From positions 1-41,339 of IMG/VR virus record IMGVR_UViG_3300033144_001492: a stretch of 41,339 bases of DNA, one strand, 5' to 3'. The notes beneath the pieces were generated by a model. That model had not been told where the DNA came from. It saw only the letters and a program-made list of their open reading frames with translations, and made no database searches. The position numbers and the translations under genes were made by a program. Below are positions 6,766 to 41,187 of the stretch, piece after piece (the stretch's first letter is position 1; each line of letters starts with the position of its first letter). Source of the DNA: a virus.

Positions 6766-6850
6766 ATTCAGAACAAAAATCTGCGATTCTCGATTCAACA
6801 GAATAATTGTCTGAATCAAGGTCAAAACTCAAACACACTCCAGTTCTCGT

Positions 6851-6970
6851 TTTAATGCGTTCTAATGAACGAACGGTGTTCCATAGCGTAACCACAACAG
6901 ACCACCAGAGTTCGTCAATGTCTTTGTGGTCTTGACATCCAGAGGTGATTTGTTAGGAATTTAACATTCC
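6851..6970 (+). ncRNA. structured noncoding element, copy 1 of a two-copy motif
   Basis: The 6766-7029 interval has no gene. It contains GAACGAACGGTGTT (6867-6880) and TTGAnnnCCAGAGG (6932-6945), both repeated at similar spacing at 28399 and 28467. Local hairpins are CGTTC/GAACG at 6859-6872 with loop TAAT, GACCAC (6900-6905) with GTGGTC (6926-6931), and GGAAT/ATTCC at 6956-6970. Conservation of blocks with variable spacers suggests a conserved RNA or a protein-binding DNA site. Strand and ends are uncertain. Confidence 0.5.
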
Positions 6971-23320: not shown

Positions 23321-23355
23321 AACCACATCAATTCAATCTGGTGTGGTTTTTTTTT
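23321..23355 (+). terminator. terminator between two fibre genes
   Basis: AACCACA pairs with TGTGGTT over a 14-base loop, followed by nine T. The spike gene starts 13 bases later, so read-through probably supplies part of its transcript. Confidence 0.75.
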
Positions 23356-23368
23356 AACTTGATATAAA

Positions 23369-24778
23369 ATGGCGTGTGAAACTGATTTCATCGACTGCAA
23401 CAATGACGAACTCGGCTGGGAACAGTTGTTCAGATTGTTGATTGCAGAACTTCCGTCTGGACAACCAGCAGTCAGAGTCTGTGATTCTGGTGGTGGTGGT
23501 GGTGCAACTGCACTTCCGATAGGAAACTTTGTGTTCGTCAATCCATTAGGAAATGACGGAACTGGTGCGAGAGAAGACTTCCATCTTCCATTCTTGACAC
23601 TTAATGGTGCGAAGAATTCTGCACTTGCTGGTGACACGATTTTCGTCTATGGTGGAACATACAATGAAGCAAACACACTTCACAAAGGAGGTGTGAAATG
23701 GCACTTTATAGGACAACCAGTTCTGAATCTGTCTGCACCTATTGTCTGGACTGATTCTGGTGCGTTCGGTCAACAATTTATAGAGATTGAAGGAAACGCA
23801 ATCGTTAATCACATTGGACTCGGTTCAGTTTTGGACGTAGTGAATACCAACACAGTTGTCAATGTGACATTCAAGTCTGTGACCTCTCTTGCTTATGCAA
23901 GTTTAAGACTTCAAAACGGAAGTGGAATCATCAACATCAATGGAAGGATTGAATGTACCTTGACAAACCATACAATCTACCTTGACGGAAATGCGTCATT
24001 CACAATCAACGCAGAAGAAATCTTCAACAGTGCAACAAGTGGAATCACTTCGTGTATTTATGTGAAGAACAATGCGAACATCTTCACTGGACTGACAGTC
24101 ATCAATTCACGACTTGTTCAGTGTGACGCATTATTTTCTGCGATTCGTCTTGATTATGGTGCGAACACTGGAACAGTGGTTGTGAATGTATCTGACAAAG
24201 TCCACTGGACAAATCTTCTCGGTGGAACATATCCACAAACGAACAATGCAGTTATTGTGATGGGCGGAAATCTTGAAGTCAATGGAAACATTGATGGTGG
24301 AAATGGTCACGCAATTCAGATGTCAACTGCAACACACGACAAGTCGTTGACACACAATGGAAACGCAACGAACAATGGAAATCTTCCACTGGTCGGTCAC
24401 GGTCAGTTCGACATCGCGTTTTGGTTGAGTAACAAAGCAACAATTAAATTGAACGGAATCTATTCATCAAGCAATCCAGACACTGTGACACACGGTGGAA
24501 CAACATCAAAATTGACGGTGGATGGAAGAGTGGAGAACAGTTCAACAGATGTCGGAACAACGACTGGTGTGATACTGGAAAACAGTGCTGGAACAACCAT
24601 ATTCGAATCGTGTGTGATTGTTATGGACTTAGGTGCTGGAACTCCAGAATGTGTCGGTTCACTTGTTGCATCAAACATCAAAATCTTTCACAGTCTTGGT
24701 TCAAACGCAAACGCAAATGTGAACATCACAAATCAAATCACTGGAACAAGTCTGATTGTTGACACTGATTTTGAATAA
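23369..24778 (+). CDS. right-handed beta-helix tail spike or fibre
   Basis: 469 residues. The N-terminus (FIDCNNDELGWEQLFRLLIA, then GQPAVRVCDS) is the short module that is duplicated in the neighbour, then a glycine run acts as a linker. NPLGNDGTGAREDFHLPFLT followed by AGDTIFVYGGTYNEA is the typical entry of a DUF1565/pectate-lyase-like beta helix: a dense set of short strands with N, G and T turns runs to the end. Such spikes bind or cut surface polysaccharide. No catalytic acid pair can be assigned by eye. It is the best candidate for the host-recognition protein. Confidence 0.75.
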   Translation: MACETDFIDCNNDELGWEQLFRLLIAELPSGQPAVRVCDSGGGGGATALPIGNFVFVNPLGNDGTGAREDFHLPFLTLNGAKNSALAGDTIFVYGGTYNEANTLHKGGVKWHFIGQPVLNLSAPIVWTDSGAFGQQFIEIEGNAIVNHIGLGSVLDVVNTNTVVNVTFKSVTSLAYASLRLQNGSGIININGRIECTLTNHTIYLDGNASFTINAEEIFNSATSGITSCIYVKNNANIFTGLTVINSRLVQCDALFSAIRLDYGANTGTVVVNVSDKVHWTNLLGGTYPQTNNAVIVMGGNLEVNGNIDGGNGHAIQMSTATHDKSLTHNGNATNNGNLPLVGHGQFDIAFWLSNKATIKLNGIYSSSNPDTVTHGGTTSKLTVDGRVENSSTDVGTTTGVILENSAGTTIFESCVIVMDLGAGTPECVGSLVASNIKIFHSLGSNANANVNITNQITGTSLIVDTDFE

Positions 24779-27811: not shown

Positions 27812-28279
27812 ATGGGCGATTATAAAGAAAAAAAAGGAACAACAAGAGTCGGTGATTTTTTGAGGGGTGCGAAGAGTGTTGCACCAGACTTGCTGAATCT
27901 TGTCGGAAACATCACTGGAGTTGATATGCTGAAGAACATCGGAAACTCAATCAAAGGTGACAAGAACCTCTCTCCAGAGGACAAGGAAACTGCGTTGAAA
28001 CTTCTGGAACTGGATGTGATTGAAGCACAAGAAGTGTCGAAGAGGTGGTCATCTGATATGCAATCCGATTCGTGGTTGTCGAAGAATGTTCGACCATTGA
28101 CGTTGATGTTTTTAATCTTGTTCACATCATTTGTCATCGTCACCGATAGCAAAACGGAGTGGAATTTCGAAGTTCGAGAAAGTTATATTCAACTTTTGGA
28201 GTCACTTTTGTTGACAGTTATTGTTGCGTATTTTGGTTCAAGAGGAATGGAGAAGTATAAAAAAATCAAAAAAGACTGA
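27812..28279 (+). CDS. 3-TM holin-like protein
   Basis: 155 residues. The upstream in-frame start would overlap the endolysin, so the ATG just after its stop is used. The first half is soluble (RVGDFLRGAKSVAPDLLNLV, then KNLSPEDKETALKLLELD). Then the pattern SWLSKNVRPLTLMFLILFTS, a hydrophobic hairpin, and a last span (LLESLLLTVIVAYFG) ending in lysines match the holin-of-3-TMs family used in phage and gene-transfer-agent release. It forms the lysis pair with the peptidase. Confidence 0.8.
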   Translation: MGDYKEKKGTTRVGDFLRGAKSVAPDLLNLVGNITGVDMLKNIGNSIKGDKNLSPEDKETALKLLELDVIEAQEVSKRWSSDMQSDSWLSKNVRPLTLMFLILFTSFVIVTDSKTEWNFEVRESYIQLLESLLLTVIVAYFGSRGMEKYKKIKKD

Positions 28280-28339
28280 TTTATTTTCAGTCAAAATGAA
28301 AGAAATTTCACACAAAAAAGTGGTGTTTTTTCTATACAA

Positions 28340-28573
28340 TTTACAAAAAAGTGCGAAAATCGGAAACGTCCGTGAAGCTACTTTTTAAGCGATTTAACGA
28401 ACGAACGGTGTTGTGTAGTATAAGACCATCGAAAAAAATAGTTAAGCGATTTGCTTTTGTAACTCGTTGAAAACCAGAGGACTGACCTCTCAAAAAACAG
28501 ACAATTTTTCTCCAGCAATTTCGATTGCTTTGCTTTGATTGACCACCTCATTTTGGGGTGGTCTTTCTTTTTT
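28340..28573 (+). ncRNA. candidate structured RNA A (copy 2 of the noncoding motif)
   Basis: This stretch has no gene. TTTTCTATACA at about 28329, repeated before RNA B, may mark a promoter. Within it, GAACGAACGGTGTT (28399-28412) and TTGAAAACCAGAGG (28467-28480) match the element near 6867. TTAAGCGATTT occurs twice, at 28385 and 28442. Hairpins seen are AGAGG/CCTCT (28476-28490) and AGCAAT-TTCG-ATTGCT (28514-28529), a UUCG tetraloop. A terminator ends it. Confidence 0.55.
28541..28573 (+). terminator. terminator of RNA A
   Basis: GACCACC pairs with GGTGGTC over a 9-base loop (TCATTTTGG), followed by TTTC and a T run. Confidence 0.85.
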
Positions 28574-28631
28574 CTACTATAAGGTAAAAAAATAGTTGTT
28601 AAAAAATTAGGAAGTAATATATCTTTTTCTA

Positions 28632-28639
28632 TACATTTG
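28632..28639 (+). promoter_or_regulatory. promoter for RNA B
   Basis: TACATTTG fits TAnnTTTG. It is the only such site here not followed by CTA (TGAGG instead). It lies just upstream of a block of stable helices that ends in a terminator. Confidence 0.6.
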
Positions 28640-28999
28640 TGAGGTCATTAAGAAATGGCAATCGTTCTTTAAATTACTGGTAATGCGTTGAGAATCAAGG
28701 AGTTAAGTGTTTCGACACTGACTCAACAGACTGAACCTCAACAAGTTACAAGGCAAACGTTTGACGGTCATCGTATTAAAACCGTAATGTCAGAACACTT
28801 GACGAATCTGGAACAGACATAGTTCAGAAAGATGAAAAAGTGTTGCAAGTGTTTTGACTCTGGGTGCGATGAACACTCTTCTGCCAATCTAAGCTACAAG
28901 ACGCACTGTCGAATAAAAGCAAACGAGGACATCACAGACAAATCATCAAGACTCTAAATAAGAGGACAAGCCGACATCGTAAATGATGTCGGCTTTTTT
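28640..28999 (+). ncRNA. candidate structured RNA B, about 350 nt, unclassified
   Basis: No reading frame is credible. Several strong helices are visible. A 13-bp pairing, with one G-U, joins GTCAGAACACTTG (28789-28801) with CAAGTGTTTTGAC (28846-28858); inside it, TCTG-g-AAC (28807-28814) pairs with GTTCAGA (28822-28828). GAGT and GTGT form a hairpin with UUCG loop (28700-28724). TTAAGAA pairs with TTCTTTAA (28648-28672). GTTGAG (28687) pairs with CTCAAC (28737). GGTGCG (28863) pairs with CGCACT (28902). CTCT pairs with AGAG (28952-28964). It is bounded by a promoter and a terminator. I do not match it to tmRNA, RNase P or 6S. Confidence 0.7.
28968..28999 (+). terminator. terminator of RNA B
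   Basis: AAGCCGACATC pairs perfectly with GATGTCGGCTT around a 6-base loop, then TTTTTT. It is a textbook intrinsic terminator. Confidence 0.95.
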
Positions 29000-29039: not shown

Positions 29040-29684
29040 ATGAAAATTTTAAAACAAGCAATCACAGTTGAAGCAATAAGAACAACACAGAGAGATTGTG
29101 ACAGTCAAAACATTGAAGTCAAATTCACATCTGGAGAACAATGGAAAACAGTTTGTGGACATATCAACCACCGAACGAACTTTGTTCATCTGACTGCAAA
29201 TGAAGAGGCACAAGAACGTGAACTGGAAAACTGGAACATTGAACTGGATGACATTGTCACAATGATTGAGAGCAGAGAAATCGAACTCGGAACTGATTTC
29301 GAATTGAGTCATTCCAGAGAACGCACCAGACAATCGACTGTTGACAATGATTTCCAGAAACCAGAGAAGTTTTCAGAAAACTGGTGGAAAGAAAAACGGA
29401 ATGAATTCATCAAATTTTTGACACCACTGCACAATGCAGAAATGGAGTTCGAAGATATGTTGTTCAATCATCTGGTGGACAGTGAAGTTCCAGCAACAAG
29501 ATTCGTGGAGTTCATCGGAGAAGGATTCGAGAAAGAAAGTTTGAGAGTTCAACTCGGTGAGTTCGGAATTCGAGGTGAAGCAGAAACAGAGTTGAAGAAG
29601 TTCCACAAATCGAATCTGGTTCAATTCCTCTTCGATGACGGAAACTTTCACATCACAGTTGACAACCGACTGTTGACAACATAA
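29040..29684 (+). CDS. early-region protein, unknown function
   Basis: 214 residues, acidic, helical, with no signal or membrane segment. N-terminal strands (MKILKQAITVEAIRT, then VKFTSGEQWKTVCGHINHRT) are followed by a long helical region with FSENWWKEKRNEFIKFLTPL. It begins after AAATCAAATCAAATG and opens the region of small early genes. A hairpin follows. I do not recognise the family. Confidence 0.6.
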   Translation: MKILKQAITVEAIRTTQRDCDSQNIEVKFTSGEQWKTVCGHINHRTNFVHLTANEEAQERELENWNIELDDIVTMIESREIELGTDFELSHSRERTRQSTVDNDFQKPEKFSENWWKEKRNEFIKFLTPLHNAEMEFEDMLFNHLVDSEVPATRFVEFIGEGFEKESLRVQLGEFGIRGEAETELKKFHKSNLVQFLFDDGNFHITVDNRLLTT

Positions 29685-32355: not shown

Positions 32356-32655
32356 ATGTCAATCAACAAAACTTATCGAATCGAAAAACCACTGGTGGAA
32401 CTTCTGGACAAGAACAAGCAATCATCTGGTCGAAATAAAGATTTCACGGTGAACAGTGCAGTCAGAATGTATCTGTTGAACGAGAAGAACAAAGGAAAGT
32501 CATTCTCAAAATCGGAACGTGGTTCTGTGATTCCTCGAAATTACTGGATGGAAAACGATGTTCTGGAAATGATGGAATCTTTCAAGTTGTCGGATGGAAT
32601 AAACTATTCGAAGACAATCAACAATTCTCTAAAATTATATTTCAATGAAGTCTAA
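32356..32655 (+). CDS. putative DNA-binding protein with two ribbon-helix-helix-like repeats
   Basis: 99 residues. The first half (TYRIEKPLVELLDKNKQSSG, then FTVNSAVRMYLLNE) and the second half (VIPRNYWMENDVLEMMESFK, then YSKTINNSLKLYFNE) share the same plan: a short strand, a helix, a polar turn, then a helix with N-SA/NS-x-(R/K)-x-YL/YF. This is like a fused pair of ribbon-helix-helix units, which would bind DNA as a pseudo-dimer. It follows a terminator, so it could regulate the recombination operon. The fold is inferred by eye. Confidence 0.55.
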   Translation: MSINKTYRIEKPLVELLDKNKQSSGRNKDFTVNSAVRMYLLNEKNKGKSFSKSERGSVIPRNYWMENDVLEMMESFKLSDGINYSKTINNSLKLYFNEV

Positions 32656-37563: not shown

Positions 37564-37628
37564 GAGCAATTAAAATAATATATTATACCATCTTTCCAGA
37601 AAAGTTGAAGCATAAGCACAAGAAATGA
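37560..37628 (+). CDS. 22-residue mini-ORF linking to queD
   Basis: It begins within the stop region of the preceding gene and ends in ATGA with queD. The peptide starts MRAIKIIYYTIFPEK and ends in a lysine/histidine tail. It could be a coupling leader rather than a working protein, but the two-sided overlap is the same as for the larger genes. Confidence 0.35.
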   Translation: MRAIKIIYYTIFPEKLKHKHKK

Positions 37629-38170
37629 GTCAAACCATCACCAGACCATTTGAGTTCGATTCTGCGCATCGTGTGATGAATCAAAAATTCAAGTGTTACA
37701 ACTTGCACGGTCACAGATATCGTGCAGAATTGACGTTCTTCTTCGTTGAGGTTGAGGAAATCGGATATCAAATCGACTTCTCTGAAATAAAACGCATCGG
37801 TGGACAGTGGATTGATGACCACCTCGACCACGCAATCATCTTGAATCCAGAAGATAAATCGATTTTAAAGGTCTGTGACGAACTTTCTTCTCGGTTCTGG
37901 ACAATGAGTCTGAACGGTGAAAGATATTGCAATCCGACTGTCGAGAATGTGTCAAAAGAAGTGTTTCTTGCAATCTCAACATTGTTCGACCACGAATCAA
38001 AACTGATTTTGACGGAAGTGAAGTTGTTCGAAACTCCGAACTGTTGGACAATATGCACCAGAAAGTCCATCACAACAGAAGAAGAAGAAAATTTCTTTGT
38101 GAAGAACTATGTTTCTTTAAAAGATTATCAAAAGAAGAAAGGACAAATTCAATACGATGACAGATTTTGA
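37625..38170 (+). CDS. queD: QueD, 6-carboxy-tetrahydropterin synthase
   Basis: This enzyme converts 7,8-dihydroneopterin triphosphate to 6-carboxy-tetrahydropterin, the first committed step to preQ0. Zinc ligands are H15 (FDSAHR), H28 and H30 (NLHGH). The catalytic cysteine is C24, directly before YNLHGH. DFSEIK, LDHAIIL, PTVEN and ETPN follow as in the family. At 181 residues it is longer than the usual about 120, with an insert after the first third and a charged C-terminal tail. It is joined by ATGA overlaps to its neighbours. Its substrate needs FolE, not seen here. Confidence 0.93.
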   Translation: MSQTITRPFEFDSAHRVMNQKFKCYNLHGHRYRAELTFFFVEVEEIGYQIDFSEIKRIGGQWIDDHLDHAIILNPEDKSILKVCDELSSRFWTMSLNGERYCNPTVENVSKEVFLAISTLFDHESKLILTEVKLFETPNCWTICTRKSITTEEEENFFVKNYVSLKDYQKKKGQIQYDDRF

Positions 38171-38339
38171 ACGCATATTTGCACAAGGTTATGAACAAGG
38201 ACAGAAAGACTTGATTCAGACAATCAAAGACCGAATCAATGGAGTCGTTGACAAATCAGACACGAATCAGATGTCAGATTGTCTGTTGTTGTTGCTACAA
38301 ATAACACCATCAGAACAAAAAAATGAAACAGAGGAATGA
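38157..38339 (+). CDS. 60-residue protein between queD and queE
   Basis: A helical, acidic protein: MTDFERIFAQGYEQGQKDLI, then KDRINGVVDKSDTNQMSDCL, then a leucine-rich turn and NETEE. It overlaps queD by 14 bases and queE by 17. The full overlap on both sides and its conserved-style sequence argue that it is a component of the pathway, for example a small partner of QueD or QueE. It might equally be an unrelated passenger. No known homologue is recognised. Confidence 0.55.
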   Translation: MTDFERIFAQGYEQGQKDLIQTIKDRINGVVDKSDTNQMSDCLLLLLQITPSEQKNETEE

Positions 38340-39057
38340 CATATCAGTCGCAGAATGGTTCTATTCTGTGCAAGGTGAAGGAATCACCAGTGGAACACCA
38401 TCAATCTTCTTGCGTCTTGCTGGATGCAATCTGTTGTGTGGTCGAAATGACGCAACGTGGACGTGTGACTCAATCGAGGTCTGGAAGAATGGTCAAACAT
38501 TCAACGTCTTTGAACTGATTCGGAAGATGAACAACGACATCGCACTGTTCAATCGTCTGAAACACGCAAATCTGGTCATCACTGGTGGAGAACCACTTCA
38601 ACAACAACAATCTCTGTGTGTCTTTCTGCACGAAATCCGAGAACTGACAAGCGAGAGAGGTCACAATGTGGTCGTTGAGGTCGAAACAAACGGAACAATC
38701 ACACCATCAATGGAACTGAACTCTCTTGTCAACATCTGGAATGTGTCACCGAAACTGTCAAACTCTGGAGAACCTATCAAAAAACGATTCAATCTGGACG
38801 CAGTTCGCATCTTTAACGCATCGAACAAAGCACAATGGAAGTTCGTTGTCACCAGACACGATGACTTGAAGGAAATCATCGCAGAATGGTGTCCAGTGAT
38901 TGAAGATGAAACAATGATTCAACTGATGTCTGGTGCAGATAATCGGAAAGACCTTGACAAAATGAATCAATGGTTGATTAAAAAGTGTTTGATTTATGGA
39001 TTCAGATTCACAAATCGACTCCAGATTCAAGTGTGGAACGAAAAAACTGGAATATGA
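38323..39057 (+). CDS. queE: QueE, radical SAM 7-carboxy-7-deazaguanine synthase
   Basis: It makes 7-carboxy-7-deazaguanine from carboxy-tetrahydropterin with S-adenosylmethionine. EWFYSVQGEGITSGTPSIFL is the family opening. The 4Fe-4S cysteines are C35, C39 and C48 (GCNLLCG, then ATWTCDS); this wider spacing of the third cysteine is seen in phage and some bacterial QueE. NLVITGGEPL and VVVEVETNGT are the SAM and substrate loops. 244 residues is normal. Its stop overlaps queC as ATGA. Confidence 0.93.
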   Translation: MKQRNDISVAEWFYSVQGEGITSGTPSIFLRLAGCNLLCGRNDATWTCDSIEVWKNGQTFNVFELIRKMNNDIALFNRLKHANLVITGGEPLQQQQSLCVFLHEIRELTSERGHNVVVEVETNGTITPSMELNSLVNIWNVSPKLSNSGEPIKKRFNLDAVRIFNASNKAQWKFVVTRHDDLKEIIAEWCPVIEDETMIQLMSGADNRKDLDKMNQWLIKKCLIYGFRFTNRLQIQVWNEKTGI

Positions 39058-39722
39058 ATGGTTCAAAAGCAGTTGTCATCTTCTCTGGTGGACAAGACTC
39101 CACCACTTGTCTTGCGTGGTCACTTGAAAGATATTACATTGTCGAGTGCATCACGTTCGAATATGGACAGAAACACGCAATCGAAATCAATCAATCGAAG
39201 AAAATCTGTGCGAAATGGAACGTCAAACAGACGATTGTTGACCTTAAATTCCTCGACACTCTGGTTGATTCTGCACTCACATCGAACGGTGATGTGGACG
39301 AAATCACTGACAAAGGTCTTCCAGCGTCATTCGTTCCGAATAGGAATCAACTATTCATCACACTTGCACACGCATACGCACAGAAAATCGGTGCAGAAAC
39401 CATCGTCACTGGAGTATGTTCGCAAGACGCAAACGGATATCCAGACACCACAACAGAGTTCATCAACCACATTGAACGCACATCAAATCTCGGTTCTGAT
39501 GGTTGTGTGAAGATTGAAACACCACTTATCAACAAACTAAAGTTCGAAACTTTCCTTCTTGCAGACGAACTGGACTGTCTGGAAGATGTTCTGGAGTTGT
39601 CACACACTTGTTATAATGGAAACAGAACAGACCGTCATCCATACGGATATGGATGTGACGAATGTGGTGCGTGTAAACTTCGCAGAGAGGGGTTCAATTC
39701 GTTCCTAAACATTCAACAATGA
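39054..39722 (+). CDS. queC: QueC, preQ0 synthase
   Basis: An ATP-dependent enzyme that turns carboxy-deazaguanine into preQ0. The PP-loop SGGQDSTT is at 11-18. DLKFLDTLVDSALT and GLPASFVPNRNQLFITLAHA are the middle signatures. The zinc site is C186, C201, C204 and C207 (HTCYNG, then GCDECGACK). Length is 222 residues, normal. Upstream in-frame starts lie inside queE, so the ATG overlapping the queE stop is used. No QueF is seen, so preQ0 should be the end point. Confidence 0.93.
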   Translation: MNGSKAVVIFSGGQDSTTCLAWSLERYYIVECITFEYGQKHAIEINQSKKICAKWNVKQTIVDLKFLDTLVDSALTSNGDVDEITDKGLPASFVPNRNQLFITLAHAYAQKIGAETIVTGVCSQDANGYPDTTTEFINHIERTSNLGSDGCVKIETPLINKLKFETFLLADELDCLEDVLELSHTCYNGNRTDRHPYGYGCDECGACKLRREGFNSFLNIQQ

Positions 39723-40525
39723 AGATTTTCTTTGCTGGTTCTGACCTCACAAAATACGACAGACGAAAGACTCTGAATGACTCTGGTGTGAATCGGTTTC
39801 TATATTCTTTCCACTCCTTGAAACGGTTCTCGAAGGATGTGATGGAACACTGCAAGGTCGGAAAGGAACTCGGAGAAGAAATCTTTCTCGATTCTGGTGC
39901 GTTCTCTGGAATGACACAAGGAGTTCACATCGATATTCGTGACTATTGTGACACCATACATAAGAATCTGGACAATCTGTCTGTCTATGCGTCACTCGAT
40001 GTCATTGGTGACTATCACGGAACACAAAAGAACTTTGAATTTATGCAATCAGAAGGACTCGAACCACTGATGACATTCCACATCGGTTCTCCATTCTCTA
40101 TTCTGGAAGAAATGGTCACACAAACTGACTATCTTGCAATCGGTGGTCTGGTCGGCAAACCGAAACTGATGGTCAAAAGGTTTCTGGAGAAGTGTTTCTC
40201 AATCATCAGAACAGATGCAAAGGTTCACGGATTCGGATTCACCTCTGTTCACGGTCTGAAAGCATATCCATTCTATTCGGTGGACTCGACAACGTGGTTC
40301 GGTGGTTCAATGAGAGCAGAAATCCACAAATATCACGATGGAAAAATCACATACATCAAAACAAAACGGAAAGACCACGCATCTGGAGAGTCAATGTGTT
40401 TCACAGATACTGGAGAAAACAAACTCTGGTTCGAAAGAAACGTTCAGAACGCAGTTGAGTGGATGAAATATGAACAATATCTGGATGAACTCTGGACAAA
40501 ACGAGGAATAAAATGGACAAAATGA
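39719..40525 (+). CDS. dpdA: DpdA-like DNA transglycosylase (TGT superfamily)
   Basis: A 268-residue TIM-barrel protein that probably swaps guanine in DNA for preQ0. LDSGAFSG (57-64) is the counterpart of the TGT catalytic motif DSGGFQ, with D58. ASLDVIGDY (91-99), IGGLVGKPK (141-149), VHGFGFTS (169-176) and SVDSTTW (187-193) follow as in phage DpdA. D189 may be the nucleophile. It is shorter than tRNA TGT and lacks the zinc-binding tail of that enzyme, as expected for DNA-acting forms. ATGA overlaps with queC and the next gene. Confidence 0.85.
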   Translation: MKIFFAGSDLTKYDRRKTLNDSGVNRFLYSFHSLKRFSKDVMEHCKVGKELGEEIFLDSGAFSGMTQGVHIDIRDYCDTIHKNLDNLSVYASLDVIGDYHGTQKNFEFMQSEGLEPLMTFHIGSPFSILEEMVTQTDYLAIGGLVGKPKLMVKRFLEKCFSIIRTDAKVHGFGFTSVHGLKAYPFYSVDSTTWFGGSMRAEIHKYHDGKITYIKTKRKDHASGESMCFTDTGENKLWFERNVQNAVEWMKYEQYLDELWTKRGIKWTK

Positions 40526-41187
40526 AAGTGAACAAAAGCAAATTCAAGATGATTCCACTGAAACAACTGTGGAAAGCACAATGGAACTACAAAGAAGACA
40601 ATCAAGAACAACTGAATCGTCTGGTGGAAAATATGAAACGCAACAATCAAGTGGAGAACATTCAAGTCAGAGAGGTTGAATCAGAAGATGGAAAGACATT
40701 CTTCGAGGTTATCAACGGAAACCACCGACTCGATGCGATGACCACCATCGGATTTCCGAGTGCGATGTGCTACAATCACGGACAGATTTCAGATGCACAA
40801 GCACAAAGAATCGCAATCGAAACAAATGAAACACGATTCCAGAACGATGGAACAAAGATGTCTGAACTGATTGCGTCATTCTCGAAGGATTTCTCGATGG
40901 AAGAACTCGCACAGACTCTTCCATTCACAGAAGAAGAAATCAACGGACACATCAATCTGTTGAACTACTCGTTTGATGATATCAACACAGACGGTGAAGA
41001 AGGTGAATTCAATCCGAACGCACCAGACAATCTGAAAACAATCAGAGTGACCGTTCCAGAAGAAACATTCAACCTCTGGACTCAATGGAAAGAGAGAATG
41101 AACGATGAACTCGGATATGACTCCGAAACAAAAGCAATCGAATTTGCGTTAATTGAAGCGATGAACACACCGACAATGTCAAAATAA
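40522..41187 (+). CDS. ParB/Srx-domain protein
   Basis: 221 residues. The N-terminus reads MIPLKQLWKAQWNYKEDNQE, then LVENMKRNNQ, VENIQVREVE, FFEVINGNHRLDAM, the beta strands plus the GNHR turn of ParB/sulfiredoxin domains. The later part is helical (ISDAQAQRIAIETNETRFQN, then SMEELAQTLPFTEEEINGHI), like the HTH half of ParB. The ATG nine bases downstream of the first one is used since it overlaps the dpdA stop as ATGA. ParB-type proteins bind or cut DNA with CTP or as nucleases. Here, next to dpdA, it may guide or partner DNA modification. Confidence 0.75.
   Translation: MKVNKSKFKMIPLKQLWKAQWNYKEDNQEQLNRLVENMKRNNQVENIQVREVESEDGKTFFEVINGNHRLDAMTTIGFPSAMCYNHGQISDAQAQRIAIETNETRFQNDGTKMSELIASFSKDFSMEELAQTLPFTEEEINGHINLLNYSFDDINTDGEEGEFNPNAPDNLKTIRVTVPEETFNLWTQWKERMNDELGYDSETKAIEFALIEAMNTPTMSK

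Follow-up and report, generated by a model that had tools for sequence, protein, structure and literature searches.

The window, that is, the whole stretch of DNA that was analysed, is the 41.3 kb IMG/VR record IMGVR_UViG_3300033144_001492 (41,339 nt, positions 1 to 41,339). It represents a tailed phage, with genes for portal, terminase, tape measure, endolysin and holin, and its early module comprises RecT, an exonuclease, a replication initiator and queuosine-type genes. Since a related fragment (L084, 87% terminase identity) spans the end of the window and continues into its start, the window amounts to nearly a complete genome, circular or circularly permuted. A Bacteroidota host is indicated by promoter boxes of the TAnnTTTG type and by the relatives, which occur in Bacteroidetes MAGs and among Flavobacterium phages; the gene regulation of Bacteroidota phages is poorly known. 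The genes at 37625-40525 are QueD-like, QueE-like and queuine tRNA-ribosyltransferase-like and probably form a 7-deazaguanine DNA modification set; the adjoining protein (40513-41187) has a weak ParB_N match (E 0.014).

Between the holin gene, which ends at 28279, and the gene starting at 29040 lie 760 gene-free bases, at the junction between the lysis (late) genes and the early genes. Two units, designated R1 and R2, are found inside this gap, and the features are as follows.

28327 to 28338, + strand: box TTTTTCTATACA upstream of R1, an exact 12-mer match to the box of R2
28341 to 28563, + strand: R1, a noncoding GC island (GC 38.6%) with its own terminator at 28541-28563
28624 to 28639, + strand: putative R2 promoter, a TTTTTCTATACA box with a Bacteroidota-type -7 element, TACATTTG, at 28632-28639
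28641 to 28967, + strand: R2, a noncoding stretch (GC 40.1%) with spacers of 18.2% GC on either side
28680 to 28749, + strand: nested hairpin domain with a UUCG loop, inner stem 28700-28724
28705 to 28719, + strand: 15-bp palindrome copy 1, AAGTGTTYYGACWYT, imperfect
28786 to 28800, - strand: 15-bp palindrome copy 2, on the opposite strand
28789 to 28858, + strand: 13-bp long-range helix, 28789-28801 with 28846-28858, one G-U pair
28847 to 28861, + strand: 15-bp palindrome copy 3
28968 to 28995, + strand: intrinsic terminator of R2, an 11-12-bp stem with six G-C pairs, then a T run
29040 to 29684, + strand: first gene after the R2 terminator (44-base spacer), 214 aa, family not recognised

The base composition changes sharply along the gap, with a GC content of 23.0% before R1, 38.6% in R1, 18.2% between the two units, 40.1% in R2 and 18.2% after it, and the same 12-mer precedes both units, at 28327 for R1 and at 28624 for R2. 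The sequence-only reading had described R2 as gene-free and devoid of the coding bias, and ORF, codon and period-3 tests of 28641-28967 agree: the small ORFs on the + strand have codon scores near zero or negative, compared with +0.2 to +0.5 per codon in the phage genes, and the period-3 signal falls within the lowest 3-7% of the genome. R1 carries an element of about 100 nt in common with another intergenic region (window 28340-28498 and 6805-6962, 67-76% identity), and the copy at 6805-6962 is kept in L084. The matches to a model of this element (E 4e-36 and 4e-28) are both the sequences from which the model was built, and the fold of the element in these two regions is not significant.

The boundaries of R2 are best defined at its 3' end. 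The perfect terminator that had been claimed there is confirmed at 28968-28995, one of five strong + strand terminators retained by a stricter scan. It is strong and one-directional, is preceded by 417 ORF-free bases and lies about 405 bases past the late-operon terminator; in this position it requires a transcript on which it can act. In the full-length fold it is predicted to form with a probability near 1, no stable antiterminator is predicted thermodynamically in R2, and no antitermination factor was recognised among the window proteins scanned. Elsewhere in the window (23322-23369), about 20 bases separate a strong terminator from the start of gene 23369, and no promoter is visible there; the arrangement at gene 29040 is therefore not unique here.

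The proposed promoter stood in part. Its -7 box, TACATTTG, fits the Bacteroidota -7 consensus TAnnTTTG (PMC7366714) and is one of six TAnnTTTG sites on the intergenic + strand, where 2.0 are expected (300 simulation runs, largest 6). Five intergenic sites of the class TAnnTTTGCTAWW (1465, 3731, 7030, 9650 and 36609), located 20-30 bases before start codons, are the strong promoters of this phage; the R2 site, TACATTTGTGAGG, matches this class in its core alone, lacks the CTA extension, ranks 433rd under the matrix of the five and has no clear -33 element upstream. From the position of the box, transcription of R2 would start near 28645. Between the R2 terminator and gene 29040 the best promoter-matrix score is negative (rank 2573), and the genes from 29040 onward thus lack an obvious promoter that is theirs alone.

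An elaborate RNA fold had been the main claim for this locus. The 13-bp helix (28789-28801/28846-28858), the UUCG hairpin (28700-28724) and the nested helices (28680-28749) are indeed present in the sequence, and the long-range helix has a predicted pairing probability of about 1. The description of R2 as a large structured RNA did not hold, as the fold without the terminator is within chance, no homologue was found that could show covariation, and a repeated 15-bp palindrome explains the two most prominent helices. Folded together with its terminator, R2 has a minimum free energy of -97.6 kcal/mol (z = -3.8); without it, z = -1.22 and 12 of 100 shuffles fold equally well, so that the case for an elaborate RNA depends largely on the terminator. 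Sub-domains of R2 reach z values of -2.2 to -3.2 (two of them -2.7 and -3.2; for 28672-28753, z is -2.7 and four of 200 shuffles are equally good) but were chosen after the fold had been seen. A helix of at least 13 pairs occurs in 5.7% of shuffles, and in a genome scan with 160-base segments those wholly inside R2, without its terminator, rank 129th, 236th and 376th of 412, in the middle or at the bottom. A new structured RNA family at R2 is unproven.

Homology searches are in keeping with the earlier statement that the family was not recognised. No Rfam model, including those for tmRNA, RNase P, 6S, GOLLD and ROOL, matches R2: the whole window has no match at the gathering score, and permissive thresholds give only chance-level matches in the R2 region. 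BLAST of the R2 region against phage and plasmid records, and of R2 against 395 Bacteroidota genomes, found no homologue. A covariance model of 28672-28858 matches only itself in 1.08 Mb of relatives and 198 Bacteroidota genomes, and two-frame read-through pseudo-translations of R2, used as degenerate IMG/VR probes, gave no match. The product of gene 29040 is 45% identical to L167:17559-17999 across 77 aa; searched as a single sequence against IMG/VR and GTDB it has no relatives, and searched as an alignment it found a sole relative, in phage G004. The terminase relatives L082-L084 are nearest to the window phage (87-100%) but are fragments that end far from the R2 region, and scans with endolysin, capsid and terminase found no contig covering the R2 region that is closer than G004. 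The latter (58% terminase identity) is syntenic and is the nearest phage with this junction, which there consists of a terminator, a short AT-rich spacer, a 156-aa gene and then the homologue of 29040; R2 is absent. The absence of R2 from the collections searched does not show that it is nonfunctional. Two further relatives (38% terminase identity; L125:7640-7775 and L137:6026-6161) have in common a candidate RNA of about 100 nt, in which five pairs are altered on both sides yet kept, in two sequences only; it has no Rfam match at the gathering score and adjoins a tRNA-like sequence of atypical form that matches the tmRNA model weakly.

Taken by its boundaries, R2 is best read as a noncoding transcription unit of about 350 nt and is likely to be either such a unit or an early leader. 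Transcription of R2, its start site, read-through and the control of read-through are what we infer from this arrangement. The transcript would begin beyond the terminator of the late (lysis) operon, just past the 28624-28639 box, and would end at the intrinsic terminator 28968-28995, where most transcripts would stop and release a short RNA; read-through at 28995, by constitutive leakage or by antitermination acting on the leader, would yield the early mRNA. A terminated leader of the early operon is the likeliest role, because the spacer from the terminator to gene 29040 is 44 bases long and contains no visible promoter, and we propose it tentatively, at somewhat less than even confidence. 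The GC island of 40.1% between 18.2% spacers, paralleled by R1 at 38.6%, argues for it, as does the same junction in G004, where a terminator and an AT-rich spacer are followed by genes; the weakness of the R2 box, a terminator that is stably formed without a predicted antiterminator, and the lack of such a leader in G004 argue against it. It is also possible, if on the unlikely side, that R2 is, in common with R1, a phage sRNA gene in its own right, with promoter, noncoding RNA and terminator; its product would target host or phage RNA or protein in trans, and the early genes would be transcribed from elsewhere. Such a gene would account for two tandem GC islands with an identical upstream box and separate terminators, and the ~100-nt element that R1 shares with a second intergenic region, kept in L084, is compatible with it. 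A start site together with an intrinsic terminator is typical of canonical intergenic Bacteroides sRNAs (PMC7366714), and R2 ends, as an sRNA gene should, in a 3'-end intrinsic terminator (28968-28995). Against a trans-acting RNA stand the z value of -1.22 without the terminator, the failure to find a homologue and the lack of notable complementarity to the phage genome, in which the longest antisense match is 14 nt (E 0.04). It seems quite doubtful that R1 and R2 are two unnamed, phage-specific noncoding RNAs, placed in tandem where late and early genes meet, that gate early expression in Bacteroidota phages by leader-encoded antitermination.

The repeats within R2 may instead matter as DNA. 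Each of the three copies is an AGTGT-N4-ACACT palindrome, perfect or imperfect; copy 1, folding back on itself, makes up the UUCG hairpin stem, and pairing between copies 2 and 3 gives the 13-bp helix. They provide the repeated dyad-symmetric sites that an operator array requires, and a dimeric phage or host regulator bound to such an array, downstream of the early promoter, could block initiation or elongation, the RNA helices being by-products of inverted copies. We regard this as improbable, and the palindromes as suggestive of DNA sites, not as proof of them. All three exact AAGTGTTYYGACWYT matches in the window fall within 157 bases, AGTGTNNNNACACT at no more than one mismatch occurs four times in the window with three of these in R2, and an equally similar triple arose in one of 500 shuffles; such a cluster of this motif is present in none of the other contigs compared, and the deviations from the palindrome disrupt pairing within a site and are not compensatory. 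However, the motif was picked after the fact, equally similar triples occur in five of 127 real 325-base windows, coding windows among them, and palindrome clusters, mostly of A/T only, are seen elsewhere in the relatives. There is no confident repressor gene, 32356-32655 having only a weak repressor-family match (E 0.002). A decayed or recoded gene in frame 28655-28957 is disfavoured and we consider it very improbable, even though this frame is open except for two stops, begins 15 bases past the -7 box and corresponds in position to the 156-aa gene of G004. Its codon score is negative and its period-3 signal low, its Pfam and PHROG matches are weak (E 0.012 or worse), and two stops per 100 codons in one frame in six are not unusual; the small ORF at 28832-28957 (41 aa, CCKC-rich) has no credible relative and no coding bias. 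Overall, the evidence supports a leader or transcription unit at R2 and does not support a new class of ornate RNA. If R2 is transcribed, its product would be a noncoding transcript located where a Bacteroidota phage switches from late to early genes.

Nothing at R2 demands a new kind of system. GOLLD RNAs, many of which exceed 800 nt, and ROOL RNAs often lie near a tRNA island (PMC12286853). R2 resembles both as a candidate phage-encoded noncoding RNA of unknown function, but it matches neither Rfam model and has no significant fold; at ~350 nt it is shorter than GOLLD and, with no tRNA found in the window, it lies near no tRNA island, where GOLLD and ROOL often occur. Bacteroides intergenic sRNAs such as GibS have a TAnnTTTG-type promoter and an intrinsic terminator (PMC7366714). 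R2 is likewise intergenic, with a TAnnTTTG-type box and an intrinsic terminator; it differs in being phage-borne, with no conservation found. In lambda (6S/PR'-tR') and in the put leader RNAs of HK022, short noncoding transcripts from phage promoters end at a terminator that precedes an operon. At R2 no Q- or put-like element was identified, the host phylum differs, the sequence is unrelated and read-through is a proposal. What the proposed R2 leader shares with these two systems is the arrangement itself, a short noncoding phage transcript, here a predicted one, with a terminator before an operon.
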